From positions 1 through 20,574 of the IMG/VR virus record IMGVR_UViG_3300035670_007870: a stretch of 20,574 bases of DNA; one strand, given 5' to 3'. The position numbers and the translations under genes are program-made. Shown piece after piece: positions 7,341 to 13,767 of this stretch. Source of the stretch: a virus. Each line of letters starts with the position of its first letter. The first letter of the stretch is position 1. Under the pieces are notes generated by a model, which saw only the letters and a list, made by a program, of their open reading frames with translations, did no database searches and was not told the DNA's origin.

Positions 7341-7742
7341 ATGGGCAACATCATTCAAATGGGTGAAGAAGAGTACGAGATACCCACTGACCAAGCGATT
7401 CTGCTTTCCAAATATTTAACTGAGGCCTGGGACAAATTAGGTAAACCCAATGATTTATTTACCGAATCTGGTAGGAAACTCATGACGGTAATTATTGCTG
7501 CCTGGGAGGATACCTATCCGACTCAGTATGCCCAATGGAAGGCAAATAGGGATGAACACCTGGCTTCAGAGTTGCCCATCAGGGAACAGGCCCTACATAC
7601 AGGCAGGAGCTTATCATCTACCCCAACCTTTGTCTGGTATTTGATGAAGAAGTTTTACACCGGCAATAATATTAATGAGCGTAAATTTCAATTAAAGTTT
7701 GTCAAGGAATATCCGATATTTAGATATACACAGCGTATATGA
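7341..7742 (+). CDS. Hypothetical protein between capsid and glycan cassette
   Basis: This is a 133-residue protein that I do not recognise. It is mostly predicted helix (DQAILLSKYLTEAWDKLG, KLMTVIIAAWEDTYPTQY) with a basic aromatic C-terminus (KEYPIFRYTQRI). No signal peptide or membrane segment is visible. The ATG lies 16 bases after the terminator and GGA at 7335-7337 is only a weak SD; a second in-frame ATG follows six codons later. Its stop overlaps the next start as ATGA, coupling it to the large glycosyltransferase. It may be a virion accessory protein or part of the cassette. Confidence 0.7.
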   Translation: MGNIIQMGEEEYEIPTDQAILLSKYLTEAWDKLGKPNDLFTESGRKLMTVIIAAWEDTYPTQYAQWKANRDEHLASELPIREQALHTGRSLSSTPTFVWYLMKKFYTGNNINERKFQLKFVKEYPIFRYTQRI

Positions 7743-9529
7743 TGATCTCGGCCTGTCTAATTGTTAAAGACGATAGTGAACTGTCTAAGTTAAAGTCGGC
7801 AGTTGCTTCCTTTGAAGAATATGTAGAAGAGATATGTATTACCGCTAATGGTGATAAGGTAGAACAGATTGAGGCATGGTGCAAAACTCAACCCAAGATT
7901 AAATACTCTTACTTAAAGTGGGGCAAGGACTTTTCCGAACAGAGAAACTATAACTTCCTCCAGGCAGATAATAAGGCTGATTGGATCTTTTGGGTGGATG
8001 CTGATGATGTGCTTATTGGTGGGGAGAACCTTCGGTCTATTGCCAAAGCCGCTCTTAATAAGCGGCAAACCTGTGTTTATTTTGAATACTGGTATGGGTG
8101 TCAGTTTGAGGGAGAACCTTCGGCCAAAACCCTAACTAGGGTAGAAATAAAACACATGAAGGAGAGACTCATTAGTCCTAAGAAGATGGTGTGGCAGAAA
8201 CGGATTCATGAGAACCCAGTTCACCTTGAGGGCTTGGATTTTAGATATGCCAAACAACCTTACACCGAAGAATTACCCATAGCCATTCTCCATCTAGGTG
8301 CGCCTAGAGCCGAGAGTGAGGGTAAGACTATGGGTAGGACTTTAAGGAATAAGGAGCTTTTAGAACTTGAGTTAGAAGACGAGAGGCAATCAGGCCAACC
8401 AGATCCTAGAACTATTCTCTACCTAATGAAGATTTATAAAGAATTAGATGAACCCGAAATTCTAGAGAGATGTATCTTACTTGGGCATGAATACCTCCAA
8501 CTGTCTGGTTGGGATATGGAACGTGCAAGTGCTTGCGAATTGATGGGCCAATGCGCCCAGAAACTTGGTAGGGTAGATGAGGCTGAGGACTTCTATCTAA
8601 GAGCCGTTAAAGAATACCCCAATTACGTCATTCTCTATATGAGACTGGCTGCGCTCTATTTCTCCAAGAAAGATTACAGCAAAATGAAGTGGTGGATGGA
8701 GAAGTCACTCCAGATGGATGAAGATGATCCAGGCAACCAGATAGACAATGTTTTAGAGAAGGAACTTTTATCGGCAGAACTTTTAATGAATTACTACTGG
8801 AATGTAAGTCGCAACACTAAAAAGGCTTACAAAGTAGCCCAACAACTAGAGGAATTGAATCCTACCGAGCAAAACAAAGAAAACACTAAATACCTAAAGG
8901 AGTTAAGCCAACTAGATGAGGCCTGTGAGTGGGTGGATAAACTCTCTAAGTATCTGGTTAGAACTGATGAGCAAAAAGCGGTGGTAGAGTTAATGAAGGC
9001 CCTGCCAAACTCTATCTCCATGCAGCCTTTTGCGATAGGACTTTACAACAAATATGTTAAGCCTAAAGTCTGGGCCTCAAATGAAATTTGCTACTATGCC
9101 AACTTTAACCAGAAGCACTTTGAAGAGTGGAGCGGTCTGAGTCTAGAAAGGGGCATTGGTGGCAGTGAAACGGCCGTAATTCAGCTTTCTAAAGAGTGGG
9201 CCAAGAATGGTTACAAAGTCTATGTTTACTGTGATCCGGGTGGAGAGAGGGGCTTAATAGATGGGGTTTACTATTTACCCTGGTATTATTTTAATCCTAA
9301 AGATAAGTTTAATATCTTCATTCAATGGCGGTCTGGATTTATGTCTAATATTGTCAGCAGCAAGAAGTTTTATGTGGACCTTCATGATGTTTGGAATGAG
9401 GCAGATTATCTTAACCGACTGGACTCTATTGATGGCTTCTTTGTAAAGAGTAAATATCACCGCTCTATGGGGCCAAGTATCCCTGATGAAAAATTTATTG
9501 TTGTTTCAAATGGTGTTTCTGAATGTTAA
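7739..9529 (+). CDS. Multi-domain glycosyltransferase, N-terminal half (GT2 + TPR + GT-B N-domain)
   Basis: The 596-residue protein has three parts. Residues 1 to about 200 are a GT2-type GT-A domain: ISACLIVKDD at the start, catalytic-type WVDADD at 85-90 for metal and nucleotide-sugar binding. Residues about 260-400 contain TPR-like helical repeats (KLGRVDEAEDFYLRAVKEYP). From about 442 a GT-B N-terminal domain begins, with GIGGSETAV near residue 475, and it ends abruptly at EKFIVVSNGVSEC. In GT4-like enzymes the segment ending in NG is followed at once by the second Rossmann domain. Here that domain is encoded after the HNH gene, at 10159. This is therefore one half of a gene split by insertion. 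Start and preceding stop overlap as ATGA. Confidence 0.87.
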   Translation: MMISACLIVKDDSELSKLKSAVASFEEYVEEICITANGDKVEQIEAWCKTQPKIKYSYLKWGKDFSEQRNYNFLQADNKADWIFWVDADDVLIGGENLRSIAKAALNKRQTCVYFEYWYGCQFEGEPSAKTLTRVEIKHMKERLISPKKMVWQKRIHENPVHLEGLDFRYAKQPYTEELPIAILHLGAPRAESEGKTMGRTLRNKELLELELEDERQSGQPDPRTILYLMKIYKELDEPEILERCILLGHEYLQLSGWDMERASACELMGQCAQKLGRVDEAEDFYLRAVKEYPNYVILYMRLAALYFSKKDYSKMKWWMEKSLQMDEDDPGNQIDNVLEKELLSAELLMNYYWNVSRNTKKAYKVAQQLEELNPTEQNKENTKYLKELSQLDEACEWVDKLSKYLVRTDEQKAVVELMKALPNSISMQPFAIGLYNKYVKPKVWASNEICYYANFNQKHFEEWSGLSLERGIGGSETAVIQLSKEWAKNGYKVYVYCDPGGERGLIDGVYYLPWYYFNPKDKFNIFIQWRSGFMSNIVSSKKFYVDLHDVWNEADYLNRLDSIDGFFVKSKYHRSMGPSIPDEKFIVVSNGVSEC

Positions 9530-9538
9530 ACTTAATAT

Positions 9539-10162
9539 ATGTCTAAAATAACTAGAATTTGTGAAAACTGTAAGCAACCTTTTGAGTGGTTTACGTGGTG
9601 TGGTAAGGGTTTGTTTTGTTCAAAAAAATGTTTTTATGAAAGTAGAATCGGAAAACCAAGTGGGGCCAATGGTAAAAGATGGAAATTGTCAACCGCAACA
9701 AAAGAAAAAATGTCTTTGGCTCTTAAGAAGAGATATAGAAATAATCCTAAATATAAAAAGATAGTGGCAAGCATAGGCAAATCTAACGCTGGGAAAAAAA
9801 GAACATTAGAATGGCGAAAAGAGAGAAGCGAGTTATATAAAAAACTTGGCTATGGTTATTGGTTGCCAGTAAAAAGAGGCAGTGAGCATTGGCATTGGAT
9901 GGGGGGAATTACACCAGAAAAAATAAGTTTAAGAAAATCCCAAACATATAAATGCTGGAGAATTGGGGTTTTTGAAAGAGATAACTATATATGTCAACTT
10001 TGTGGAATAAGGGGAGCAAACATGGAGGCAGATCATTATCCTATACCATTTTATAAATTGTATAGAGATAGAGATTTGAAAACAATGTGGGATATAAATA
10101 ATGGTAGAACCCTTTGTAGGAGTTGCCACAAATTAGAAACTAAAAAAGAGAAATATCTATGA
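9539..10162 (+). CDS. HNH homing-type endonuclease inserted in the glycosyltransferase gene
   Basis: The 207-residue protein starts with a four-Cys zinc motif (CENCKQPF ... FCSKKCF). It continues with Lys-rich NUMOD3-like DNA-binding repeats (around LSTATKEKMSLALKK and GKKRTLEWRKERSEL), then GSEHWHWMGGITP, a signature often seen before HNH domains. It ends in a canonical HNH nuclease: CQLCG, EADHYPIPF and TLCRSCHKLE. Such enzymes cut an uninterrupted allele and spread by repair. The gene is visibly more A-rich than its neighbours, a sign of separate origin. It has no SD and begins 9 bases after the stop of the first glycosyltransferase half, in the same frame. Its own stop overlaps the start of the second half (ATGA). 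The coding region fills nearly all of the insert, leaving no room for a self-splicing intron core. Confidence 0.88.
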   Translation: MSKITRICENCKQPFEWFTWCGKGLFCSKKCFYESRIGKPSGANGKRWKLSTATKEKMSLALKKRYRNNPKYKKIVASIGKSNAGKKRTLEWRKERSELYKKLGYGYWLPVKRGSEHWHWMGGITPEKISLRKSQTYKCWRIGVFERDNYICQLCGIRGANMEADHYPIPFYKLYRDRDLKTMWDINNGRTLCRSCHKLETKKEKYL

Positions 10163-11700
10163 AGCATAATTTAAAACACAACCTAGCCAGACCGCATAGA
10201 CTGTTCTGGGGTAGTTCTTATGACCGTGGGCTAGATATTCTCCTGTTTATGTGGCCTGAGATTAAAAAACAATATCCTGATGCTGAGCTACATATTACTT
10301 ATGGTTGGGATTTGTTTGATAAGGCTGCTTCCGGCAATCCAGAGAGAATGAAGTGGAAAGAATCAGTTTCCAGAATGATGGAATATGATGGCATTAAGCA
10401 TTATGGCAGGGTGGGCAAAACAGAACTAAGACGGATTAGAAGAAACTGTGGTATCTGGGCCTATCCGACTTACTTTACTGAGATTAACTGTATAACCGCC
10501 CTGGATTGTCAGAAAGACGGGGTAGTGCCTGTAGTTTGTAATTTCAAAGATAAAAACAGATATACCGCTCTAGATGAAGTCGTCCAGTCTGGCATTAAGA
10601 TAGAGGGCAATATTACCGATGAGGCCGTCCAAGATGAGTTTAAAAAGGAATTATTAGCATTAATGGGTGATTATCCCCGATGGAAACATTTAAGTCATGA
10701 GGGCAAGAAGTTCTCCCGCCGGTTTGAGTGGCCCACCATTGCCGAGAAGTGGAGCCATATATTTGCTGGAATCTTACCCAATCCTTTGGTGAGTATTATC
10801 ACTCCCACCATTCGTAAAGGTTTCTGGAACATTATGGCCCACAACATTGCCGAGCAGACCCATCAAAATATTGAGTGGATTGTGGTGGATGATTATCCGA
10901 AAAACAGAAAACAGGTAATGGAATTGTATGTTAGTGGGTTAACACATAAATATGTGAGAGGCCTTAAAAGCGATAAATACTTCTTTTCTCTCTCTACTGC
11001 CAACAATATTGGGTGGAGAAATTCTAATGGAGAATTATTGGTTTACTTGCAGGACTTTATTTTAATGCCAAAAAACGGCATAGAAATGTTGGTAGATATT
11101 TACCGCCATCAACCCAATGCTTTAATTGCTCCTACCGATAGATTCTACTATCCAAAATACGAACCAGATGTTGACAGTGAAGACTGGTTTAATGGCAAAA
11201 CAGACGTGGTTGGGGAGTACATTAAAAGCAATATCCGAAATCAATATTTGGGCATGAGATTAACTGAGAATCCATCTGACTTTGAAATGAATTATGGCGC
11301 TATTCCTAGAAAGATCTTAGACCACCTTGGTGGCTGGTATGACTTCTTTAATGATGGCTTGGGCTACGACAACACCGAAATAGCCCTAAGAGCTTTAATG
11401 GCCGGTTACAAGATTATTATTGATGATACTAATCAGGCAGTGGGCTTGGATCACTGGGAACCCTTAAAAGAAAAACAGAATGAGTTGGGAGAAAAGCGGA
11501 CAACCAGATTAAATGACCTAAGATACATTTGGTTGAAGTATCAGCTTGAATCGGGAAAACTAACTCCAGTTAGAAATGAGAAGCTAAACCAACGCCGACT
11601 AGAGTTTGAACTACCAGAAGAAATGAGCATAACCGAATCCAGAAAGTATATGGACAAAGTTAGCGATAAATATTTTAAAATCTGGGATACCTATGTCTAA
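10159..11700 (+). CDS. Multi-domain glycosyltransferase, C-terminal half (GT-B C-domain + GT2)
   Basis: The 513-residue protein opens with what should be the second Rossmann domain of the GT-B enzyme begun upstream: RPHRLFWGSSYDRGLDILL, then PDAELHITYGW, then TYFTEINCITALD, the donor-binding Glu region of GT4-like enzymes. From about residue 208 a separate GT2-like domain follows: LVSIITPTIRKG, IEWIVVDDYP, GELLVYLQDF in place of a classical DxD, and GLGYDNTEIALRALMAGY as acceptor-side motif. The ATG overlaps the HNH stop, so the insertion supplies a restart codon. The product could pair with the upstream half to rebuild one GT-B enzyme, or its GT2 domain could work alone. It overlaps the next gene by 8 bases. 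Confidence 0.87.
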   Translation: MKHNLKHNLARPHRLFWGSSYDRGLDILLFMWPEIKKQYPDAELHITYGWDLFDKAASGNPERMKWKESVSRMMEYDGIKHYGRVGKTELRRIRRNCGIWAYPTYFTEINCITALDCQKDGVVPVVCNFKDKNRYTALDEVVQSGIKIEGNITDEAVQDEFKKELLALMGDYPRWKHLSHEGKKFSRRFEWPTIAEKWSHIFAGILPNPLVSIITPTIRKGFWNIMAHNIAEQTHQNIEWIVVDDYPKNRKQVMELYVSGLTHKYVRGLKSDKYFFSLSTANNIGWRNSNGELLVYLQDFILMPKNGIEMLVDIYRHQPNALIAPTDRFYYPKYEPDVDSEDWFNGKTDVVGEYIKSNIRNQYLGMRLTENPSDFEMNYGAIPRKILDHLGGWYDFFNDGLGYDNTEIALRALMAGYKIIIDDTNQAVGLDHWEPLKEKQNELGEKRTTRLNDLRYIWLKYQLESGKLTPVRNEKLNQRRLEFELPEEMSITESRKYMDKVSDKYFKIWDTYV

Positions 11701-12622
11701 AATTGCCATAACTGGTAGTTCAGGATTAATCGGTTCTAATCTATCTAAAAAGTTAGTAAGTCTGGGACATGATGTGGTTGGTATTTCTACCACCACTGGT
11801 TGTGACCTGACCAATGAGAAACAAACCGATGCTGTCTTTGAGCGAGTTAGGCCCGATGTGGTTTATGCCTTGGCAGCAGAAGCAGCCGAGTCTAGGGGGC
11901 AAAACTCTCCTGTTTATATGACTCAGAATAACTCTGGTATTTTTGTTAACACTCTAAAGGCCTCAATTAATGCTGGCGTTAAAAGATTTATCTACACCTC
12001 ATCCGTGGCAGTCTATGGAGAGGCTAACGTCCCATATAAAGAAGATGGACCCACCATTCCTAAAGACATTTACGGGGTAAATAAGTTGGCCTGTGAGCAA
12101 ATGCTGCAAATAATGAGTAAGGTTCACGCCTTTAATTATGTGATTTTCCGACCTCATAACATTTATGGACCAGGGCAGAACATGAGGGACCCATATAAAA
12201 ACGTAGTGGCTCTGTTTATGAGGAAGTTAATTGAGGGTGAGCCATATAAACTATTTGGTTTTGGTAAGATGCGCCGGGCTTTCTCCTATGTAGATGATGT
12301 GGTTGGGGTTATGGTGGATTCTTTAAGACCGGAATACAACAATAAAACTTTAAATGTGGGTTCAGAGAAAGACATCTCTATTAAAGAACTGTCTGATTTA
12401 ATTCAAAATATAACTGGCTTAACCGGTGAGATTGAAATGCTTAAGGGAAGACCCCAGGAAATATCCATGTTCTTGGCTGACCACACCCGACAACGAGAAC
12501 TTACGAGATATAACGAGACACCGATTGAAGACGGTTTAATGAAAACTTGGGAGTGGGTTAGGAGTAAAAAGTTGCAGCCAATTATTCAAAAGGAGACAGA
12601 AATATGTTTAAAAAAAGAATAG
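11693..12622 (+). CDS. NAD-dependent nucleotide-sugar epimerase/dehydratase (extended SDR)
   Basis: This 309-residue, full-length extended short-chain dehydrogenase has the nucleotide-binding glycine motif GSSGLIG (G8, G11, G14), catalytic S103/S104 in YTSSVAVYG, and the Tyr-Lys pair in YGVNK (Y127, K131). RPHNIYGPGQ and AFSYVDDVVGVM are typical of UDP-galactose 4-epimerase and GDP/CDP-sugar relatives. It probably oxidises a nucleotide sugar at C4, either to epimerise it or as a step to a deoxysugar. The following DegT-family enzyme would accept a 4-keto sugar, so the two may act in sequence. The exact substrate cannot be read from the sequence. It overlaps both neighbours by a few bases. Confidence 0.92.
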   Translation: MSKIAITGSSGLIGSNLSKKLVSLGHDVVGISTTTGCDLTNEKQTDAVFERVRPDVVYALAAEAAESRGQNSPVYMTQNNSGIFVNTLKASINAGVKRFIYTSSVAVYGEANVPYKEDGPTIPKDIYGVNKLACEQMLQIMSKVHAFNYVIFRPHNIYGPGQNMRDPYKNVVALFMRKLIEGEPYKLFGFGKMRRAFSYVDDVVGVMVDSLRPEYNNKTLNVGSEKDISIKELSDLIQNITGLTGEIEMLKGRPQEISMFLADHTRQRELTRYNETPIEDGLMKTWEWVRSKKLQPIIQKETEICLKKE

Positions 12623-13767
12623 ACAGAATTGAGTATGGTGGTGCTATGTGCGGTTCAGAAGAGCGTGAGGCAATGTTACGAATTTACGACTCGCAGGGTG
12701 GCAAAAGGTGGACTATTGGACCGGAAAGTGAGGCTCTTGAGGTAGAATTGGCAAATACTACCAGAGTAAAACGTGCTGTAGTGGTCAATTCCGGCAGTTC
12801 TGCTTTATTGCTGGCTGTAGCAGCCTTAAAATTACCACCTGAAAGTCTAATTGCTATTCCGGCTCTTAATTTCCCCACGGCTTTTAACGCTATCATTCAA
12901 AATGGTCACATTCCGGTCGTAATTGACTGTGATAAGAATATGCTTTTGGATTTAAATGCTTTAAAAGAAGTGGTTGAGGTAGAAGACATAGCGGCAGTGA
13001 TTGCAGTTCATGTCGCTTCTAACCCCGTAGATTTGATTAAGCTTAGAAAGATTGTGGGTTCTAAAGTAAAAATCATAAGTGACAACTGTGACGGATATGG
13101 AACCAAACTAAATGGTAAATTTATTGACACCTATGCCGACCTTTCCTGCGTTTCCTTTCATGCCGCCCATATTATTACCATGGGTGAGGGTGGGGCCATT
13201 CTAACCAACGATAATAAGTTGGCTGATGCGGCCAAGAAAATGAGGGAGTGGGGTAGAGCTTCTGGAACAGATAAGATTTACACTTATCCGGGATTCCCGG
13301 ACGACTACCGGGAGCGTTATGTTTATGAGGAAATAGGTTACAACCTAAAGCCTTTGGAATTACAGTGCGCCATTGGCAGAATCCAATTAAAGAAGTTGGA
13401 AAAGTTTAAACAGGCTAGGGCCAAAAACTATCAGAGATTGCAAAAAGTCTTTTCTAAGTTGCAGTTATTTGAAACGGTTAACACGATAAAGGGGGCTGAT
13501 GTTTGTTGGTTCTCCTTTCCCTTCTATTGCCGGGGCATAGCCAGAAAAGATGTGATGAGTACCTTAGAGGCTAATAATATTGAGTGCCGCACTATATTTT
13601 CCGGCAATATTACTAAACACCCGGCGTATGATGGGATAAATATGTCTGTCCCATTTAAATTAACCCACGCTGATGATGTCATGGAAAATGGGGTCTTTAT
13701 TTCTGTTCATCCATCTATTACCCAAGAAATGATTGACTTCATTGGGGAGGTATTAAAAAGCCTATGA
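12604..13767 (+). CDS. DegT-family sugar 3-dehydratase-like enzyme (active-site His in place of Lys)
   Basis: The 387-residue protein has the DegT/DnrJ/EryC1/StrS PLP-enzyme fold: VVNSGSSALLLAV near 61-73, ALNFPTAFNAI, ISDNCDGYG with cofactor-binding D160, and SFHAAHIITMGEGGAI at 184-199. In aminotransferases of this family the loop reads F-H-x-x-K, with the Lys forming the Schiff base; here that position is H189. His there is the hallmark of sugar 3-dehydratases: RfbH/E1 (CDP-hexulose 3-dehydrase) and ColD (colitose pathway). The loop closely matches RfbH. However, the Cys-rich RfbH segment after the DWGR motif, which holds an iron-sulphur cluster, is absent: here EWGRASGTD has no Cys. That makes it more ColD-like in mechanism. 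AGGAG (12591-12595) is the SD. Confidence 0.85.
   Translation: MFKKRIDRIEYGGAMCGSEEREAMLRIYDSQGGKRWTIGPESEALEVELANTTRVKRAVVVNSGSSALLLAVAALKLPPESLIAIPALNFPTAFNAIIQNGHIPVVIDCDKNMLLDLNALKEVVEVEDIAAVIAVHVASNPVDLIKLRKIVGSKVKIISDNCDGYGTKLNGKFIDTYADLSCVSFHAAHIITMGEGGAILTNDNKLADAAKKMREWGRASGTDKIYTYPGFPDDYRERYVYEEIGYNLKPLELQCAIGRIQLKKLEKFKQARAKNYQRLQKVFSKLQLFETVNTIKGADVCWFSFPFYCRGIARKDVMSTLEANNIECRTIFSGNITKHPAYDGINMSVPFKLTHADDVMENGVFISVHPSITQEMIDFIGEVLKSL

Follow-up and report, generated by a model that had tools for sequence, protein, structure and literature searches.

An HNH endonuclease gene that probably entered an already divided glycosyltransferase of a phage

In the 20.6-kb virus record IMGVR_UViG_3300035670_007870 of IMG/VR (positions 1 to 20,574; hereafter the window, and WIN where it is a row of an alignment or tree), a glycosyltransferase (GT) is encoded by two open reading frames (ORFs), here called the N-half and the C-half, with a gene for an HNH endonuclease between them. 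It is probable that the GT-B enzyme of this phage is a natural two-gene enzyme, and that the fission at its hinge is older than the HNH gene now found between the halves. The HNH gene most likely entered a gene that had already been split, because the whole clade to which the window belongs is split and mostly lacks an HNH gene, the nearest relatives of the window included. The original prediction made from this DNA located and described the GT halves and the intervening HNH gene correctly, as ORF and Pfam analyses showed, but its proposal that the HNH gene itself split the GT gene is not supported for the window: L006, L007, and the 43-row clade around them are split, mostly without HNH. The features of the locus are listed below with the evidence for each.

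7739..9529, plus strand: N-half, with a GT-A (GT2, SunS-like) domain, TPR, and the N-terminal Rossmann domain of a GT4-type GT-B (ORF; Pfam Glycos_transf_2, TPR, and Glyco_transf_4; homology to the modelled fused homologue L054)
9509..9517, plus strand: conserved NGV (AAT GGT GTT) that closes the N-domain of the GT-B and marks the shared break point (all split homologues aligned; N-G invariant in alignments A1 and A4)
9518..9538, plus strand: left junction, with three extra codons (SEC) and two in-frame stops (three-frame view)
9539..10162, plus strand: free-standing HNH gene, 207 residues, HNH and four zinc cysteines intact, with an N-terminal zinc finger (Pfam PF01844; PHROG 589/1271; alignment with HNH proteins from the junction and elsewhere)
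10159..10162, plus strand: ATGA, the C-half start overlapping the HNH stop (ORF calls; three-frame view)
10159..10188, plus strand: restart leader MKHNLKHNLA, first eight residues predicted to be disordered (AlphaFold2 model of P0003, with a predicted confidence score, pLDDT, below 50 at residues 1-8)
10189..10767, plus strand: C-terminal Rossmann domain of the GT-B, starting RPHRLFWGSSYDRG (alignments A2 and A3; model; fused homologues)
10789..11700, plus strand: second GT-A (GT2) domain, in the C-half protein (Pfam Glycos_transf_2; the model matches polypeptide GalNAc-transferases)

Fused and split homologues

Relatives were collected by alignment-based searches, with each locus counted once and both domains required, and were labeled fused or split according to their ORFs; scans that used P0003 or P0002 as single sequences yielded no viral ones. 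Among 147 unique homologous loci, the enzyme is one fused ORF in 78 and split in 69, and the break is always at the same point. The search for uninterrupted homologues that had been proposed with the original prediction was therefore successful. The window falls in a clade with support 100 whose 43 rows are all split; in its sister group (L052, L063, L065, L072, and others), the enzyme is fused. The nearest relatives of the window, L006 (57% identity) and L007, are split with no insert, and in both the stop of the N-half overlaps the start of the C-half by four bases. Overlaps between the halves in this clade are 4 or 11 nucleotides long and mostly take the form of ATGA or of an ATG within the NG codons (AATGG).

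The tree of this large group of uncultured phages needs at least 11 changes between the fused and split states, and starred branches force 10 of these. When the tree is rooted on fused outgroups, the history requires 12 fissions if re-fusion is forbidden and 11 changes in total if it is allowed. The distance from the NG to the C-domain is 31-52 nucleotides in fused homologues (with two outliers of 88 and 91) but 5-25 nucleotides in tightly split ones; therefore, the part that was lost is the linker. The split pair is also present on contigs L118 and L117, binned to a Micrarchaeota metagenome-assembled genome and to another named only "bacterium," which may reflect either a virus in the bin or mis-binning.

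Order of the fission and the insertion

The main alternative is that a GT gene still in one piece was broken by the insertion of an HNH gene, whether in recent times or in the founder of the split clade, and that most descendants then lost the HNH gene and stayed split. Fused homologues are common enough (78 of 147) to make such an event conceivable, and L071 offers a candidate for it: an HNH gene of the same broad group lies exactly between the halves, the sister L075 and the surrounding starred clade are fused, and the C-half start retains the linker-like sequence MENLDLTKTDRNPHRLIYMSSP. Because this HNH gene sits within an otherwise fused clade, it may have caused the split in L071. Furthermore, decayed N-terminal HNH pieces at the junction in L017 and L029 show that the site has had past occupants, and the junction HNH proteins of WIN, L031, L032, and L071 cluster weakly. 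However, most of the 43-row clade, including L006 and L007, carries no HNH gene and has halves that overlap by a few bases, the shortening of the linker resembles a short deletion or frameshift rather than an insertion followed by precise excision, and the HNH genes occupying the site are of three unrelated types. An HNH-made split is thus judged unlikely for the window. The original prediction had named homologues with halves that are always separate and without an insertion as the finding that would speak against it; the window's clade comes close to this state, although fused homologues exist further out.

Three points weigh against placing the fission before the insertion. First, no HNH-free sister nearly identical to the window was found, the closest relative having 57% identity, and the window's own insertion event is therefore reconstructed from more distant relatives. 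Second, the HNH proteins of WIN, L031, and L032 group weakly in the HNH tree (support 78-89, no starred branch), and L071 is placed near them; because of this grouping, there is room for an ancient HNH gene that split the GT gene in the founder of the clade and disappeared on many later occasions. Third, an ATG at 9523 opens MLNLIYV* to the left of the window's HNH gene, and this short frame, which is possibly, though uncertainly, left over from an earlier C-half start, is too short to fix the entry point of the element. A site-specific HNH clade was also considered but is not supported, given that the junction HNH proteins include L357 from an unrelated gene context and that the supports are low.

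Programmed ribosomal frameshifting could in principle join the halves into a fused protein in the split clade, and many members have short overlaps of the ATGA type. Frame offsets of both +1 and -1 are found at the junction, however, and overlap lengths vary among the split relatives, which leaves no conserved frameshift signal; because both offsets occur, programmed frameshifting is very improbable. Moreover, gaps of up to 2 kb hold whole genes, and a shared slippery heptamer is not visible in the aligned junctions.

The hinge and the two halves of the enzyme

The N-half ORF (7739-9529) encodes 596 residues with the C-terminal end VVSNGVSEC*. The C-half ORF (10159-11700) encodes 513 residues, starts with MKHNLKHNLARPHRLFWGSSYDRG, and carries the second GT-B domain together with another GT2 domain. 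An AlphaFold2 model of the fused homologue L054, computed from a 66-row alignment, reached a pLDDT of 94.8, and its residues 448-805 match GT4-like GT-B folds with Z-scores of 26-31 (best 30.9) and root-mean-square deviations of 2.4-3.7 over approximately 300-330 residues. The model identifies the enzyme as a GT-B of the GT4 type, with two Rossmann domains in the GT-B arrangement. Because residues 592-593 of the model hold the NG and residues 610-616 the opening strand of the C-domain, the break maps to the inter-domain linker between the two Rossmann domains. The original prediction had the first half stopping right after NGV, at the hinge and within the GT-B domain. The break does follow NGV and does fall at the inter-domain hinge, but the actual end is NGV-SEC, and the break lies just before the linker and not inside a domain.

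The C-half of the window is predicted to fold alone (AlphaFold2, pLDDT 84), with disorder limited to the first eight residues, which are part of the restart leader. The E-x7-E motif of the C-domain reads FTEINCITALD in the window; the first E, which is invariant in alignment A3, is kept, and the second position is D (K in L003). In close split pairs, the ratios of nonsynonymous to synonymous substitution rates (dN/dS) for the N- and C-halves are 0.07 and 0.07 (L021/L024) and 0.05 and 0.12 (L027/L038), values that point to purifying selection on both halves. That the broken GT gene is decaying as a pseudogene and simply tolerates insertions might be suspected from the many different inserts gathered at the break, but these ratios of about 0.05-0.12, the full length of the halves in dozens of lineages, and the conservation of motifs in both leave little credence for it.

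The HNH gene

The HNH ORF at 9539-10162 matches the Pfam family HNH (PF01844) with a score of 22.8 bits (cut-off 21.4), and the nuclease motif and zinc cysteines are conserved in its protein (alignment A9, Pfam, and PHROG). The gene fills most of the 629-nucleotide gap that separates the stop of the N-half from the start of the C-half and is indeed A-rich, as had been predicted (40.4% A). Its GC content is 33.7%, compared with approximately 40-41% in the flanking halves, and only 0.4% of equal-sized windows have a lower value; by these measures, the gene is compositionally foreign. It starts 10 nucleotides past the N-half stop, and its stop shares ATGA (10159-10162) with the C-half ATG, an overlap that the original prediction had also described. 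Group I introns often house HNH genes, but a self-splicing intron or intein that would yield one continuous protein is the least credible of all the alternatives: Rfam families (cmscan, gathering score, whole window) gave no match, hence neither a group I nor a group II intron; only about 45 nucleotides of the gap lie outside the HNH ORF, so that there is no room for such an intron, as had been argued; two in-frame stops follow the N-half; and HNH-free relatives are still split, in different frames. The HNH gene is accordingly classed, from sequence, as free-standing and outside any intron or intein, with predicted nuclease activity.

The junction as an insertion slot

HNH genes are present at the junction in WIN, L002 (truncated where the contig ends), L025, L031, L032, L044, L048, L071, and L328 (an 81-residue core). 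Those of WIN, L031, L032, L071, and L328 resemble PF01844/HNH_2, those of L025, L044, and L048 are of the HNH_3 type, and that of L002 is endonuclease-VII-like; at least three types are thus represented. A further candidate, a decayed HNH in L018, matched only our own hidden Markov model and neither Pfam nor PHROGs, and was left uncounted. When Pfam HNH matches were counted over the whole records (49 records), 6 of 47 were at the junction, compared to an expectation of 1.2-1.7 (P 0.001-0.007). The junction is a modest HNH hotspot. Among 80 HNH relatives, a GT neighbor was found only for L422, and there the GT is fused.

Other genes have also been inserted at this site. A GroEL gene lies between the GT halves in three related phages (L004:5640-7208, L110:4467-6026, and L114:3106-4824), a DNA methylase in L104, an S-adenosylmethionine (SAM) methyltransferase in L083, and small ORFs in other loci. 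In L049 (7876-8526) and L051 (7737-8420), SAM methyltransferases of the FkbM and Methyltransf_24 types form in-frame fusions with the GT-B domain of the C-half, at its N-terminus. The N-half proteins of L027 and L038 are 95% identical, and an insert of about 140 nucleotides at the junction (with a 51-residue cysteine-rich ORF) differs between them.

Turnover of HNH genes at the junction

L025 and L032, which come from two metagenomes, are 99.66% and 99.83% identical over the 5.9 and 5.2 kb flanking the junction. Their junctions hold different HNH genes, each without the other's, and the final approximately 210 nucleotides of their N-halves differ abruptly, a diverged tract as expected of co-conversion. 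The two loci can be read as a natural before/after pair for homing. The HNH gene of L025 lies within the C-half start. To its left, a remnant of the old start, MKHHKLFWGSSYDR, is found; on the right-hand side, the start has been re-created with codon changes that are mostly synonymous (AAA>AAG, CTC>TTG, TTC>TTT, TCA>AGT, and AGC>TCG; one is W>Y), after which the sequence rejoins that of L032. Similar remnants of the C-half start are retained in L031 and L044. We infer that the recoding in L025 may shield the element from its own nuclease. Recent co-inheritance of the N-half tail of the window with the HNH gene of L032, considered for a shared 15-nucleotide stretch, was not supported by windowed identity.

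Gene neighborhood

The GT pair lies downstream of an SU10-like capsid gene (Pfam). It is followed, at 11693-13767, by genes for an NAD-dependent epimerase and a DegT aminotransferase (Pfam), which suggests that the phage may make a modified nucleotide sugar of its own. Near the terminase, a small ORF (1114-1422) looks HNH-like by eye (CELRLPGC...CVNCHEQ) and has no Pfam match at an E-value of 0.01.

Proposed history and mechanism

In the ancestor of the 43-member clade, the two domains would already have been encoded by two ORFs coupled in translation. After the fission, the junction would have been entered by a free-standing HNH homing endonuclease of a kind that invades it repeatedly. Its nuclease would cut an uninvaded allele of the junction, and the gene would be copied in during repair. 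The insertion may have been retained because coupled reading was preserved, with the HNH start 10 nucleotides beyond the N-half stop and the HNH stop placed over the C-half ATG. The C-half would be translated by reinitiation at the overlapping codons, and the two polypeptides would pair at the GT-B interface as subunits of a single enzyme. In the phage of the window, the HNH gene thus most likely arrived late, in a gene split long before, whereas across the family HNH genes may have made some of the splits.

A broader and more tentative proposal, which we regard as possible but doubtful, is that the hinge is a long-lived slot that has been broken repeatedly. Several HNH lineages would target the codons of NG...GSSYDRG, would carry a recoded C-half start by which the host gene is rebuilt and re-cutting is blocked, and would have caused several of the independent fissions. 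The breaks would be tolerated because the Rossmann domains act as separate subunits, which would also let methyltransferases fuse to one half.

Comparison with known systems

Compared to other split genes, the locus shows several likenesses and differences. First, in Aeromonas phage Aeh1, the HNH gene mobE lies between the halves of nrdA, and the two polypeptides reassemble (PMC2988022). The original prediction drew this parallel, and the arrangement does resemble it: a free-standing HNH gene is found between the halves of an enzyme gene, and reassembly would be expected here. The stop and start codons also overlap, as those of T4 mobE do with the gene upstream (PMC2988022). However, the relatives of Aeh1 have an unsplit nrdA, and the HNH gene is taken as the cause, whereas here the close HNH-free relatives are themselves split, except those of L071. 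The enzyme also differs, being a glycosyltransferase split at a domain hinge.

Second, in gene 43 of Aeromonas phages 25 and 44RR, the endonuclease seg43(25) may have invaded an already split gene, and 43A and 43B co-purify and are active (PMC2988022). The possible arrival of a nuclease in a pre-split gene is what is proposed here. That case involves a GIY-YIG nuclease and a DNA polymerase in few genomes, and the present one an HNH nuclease and a glycosyltransferase, in which 69 loci are split and no fewer than 10 transitions occurred.

Third, Alg14/Alg13 and EpsE/EpsF are GT-B enzymes encoded by two genes, for which one fission and several re-fusions have been inferred (PMC8993221). They likewise divide a GT-B enzyme into N- and C-domain genes, but they belong to a MurG-like GT family, are cellular, derive from a single inferred split, and have no HNH gene at the junction.

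Fourth, mobile ORFs of fungal mitochondria (atp6, Allomyces, Glomus) consist of an endonuclease gene and a diverged copy of a gene end, which replaces the native end and leaves it as a remnant (PMC3630166). The L025 element appears to be built in the same way, and native remnants are also present in L031 and L044. While the mitochondrial LAGLIDADG or GIY-YIG elements replace the 3′ end of a gene, the phage HNH element here would replace the 5′ end of the downstream half.

Significance

Only a handful of phage genes split by homing endonucleases have been described, and whether the break or the nuclease came first is usually unclear. With 147 homologues, at least 10 transitions between the fused and split states, a near-identical pair of loci with reciprocal HNH genes, decayed nucleases, and one candidate for an HNH-made split, this family would allow the order of events to be studied statistically. 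The family also provides a natural series of split GT-B glycosyltransferases, which would be suited to tests of two-subunit assembly.

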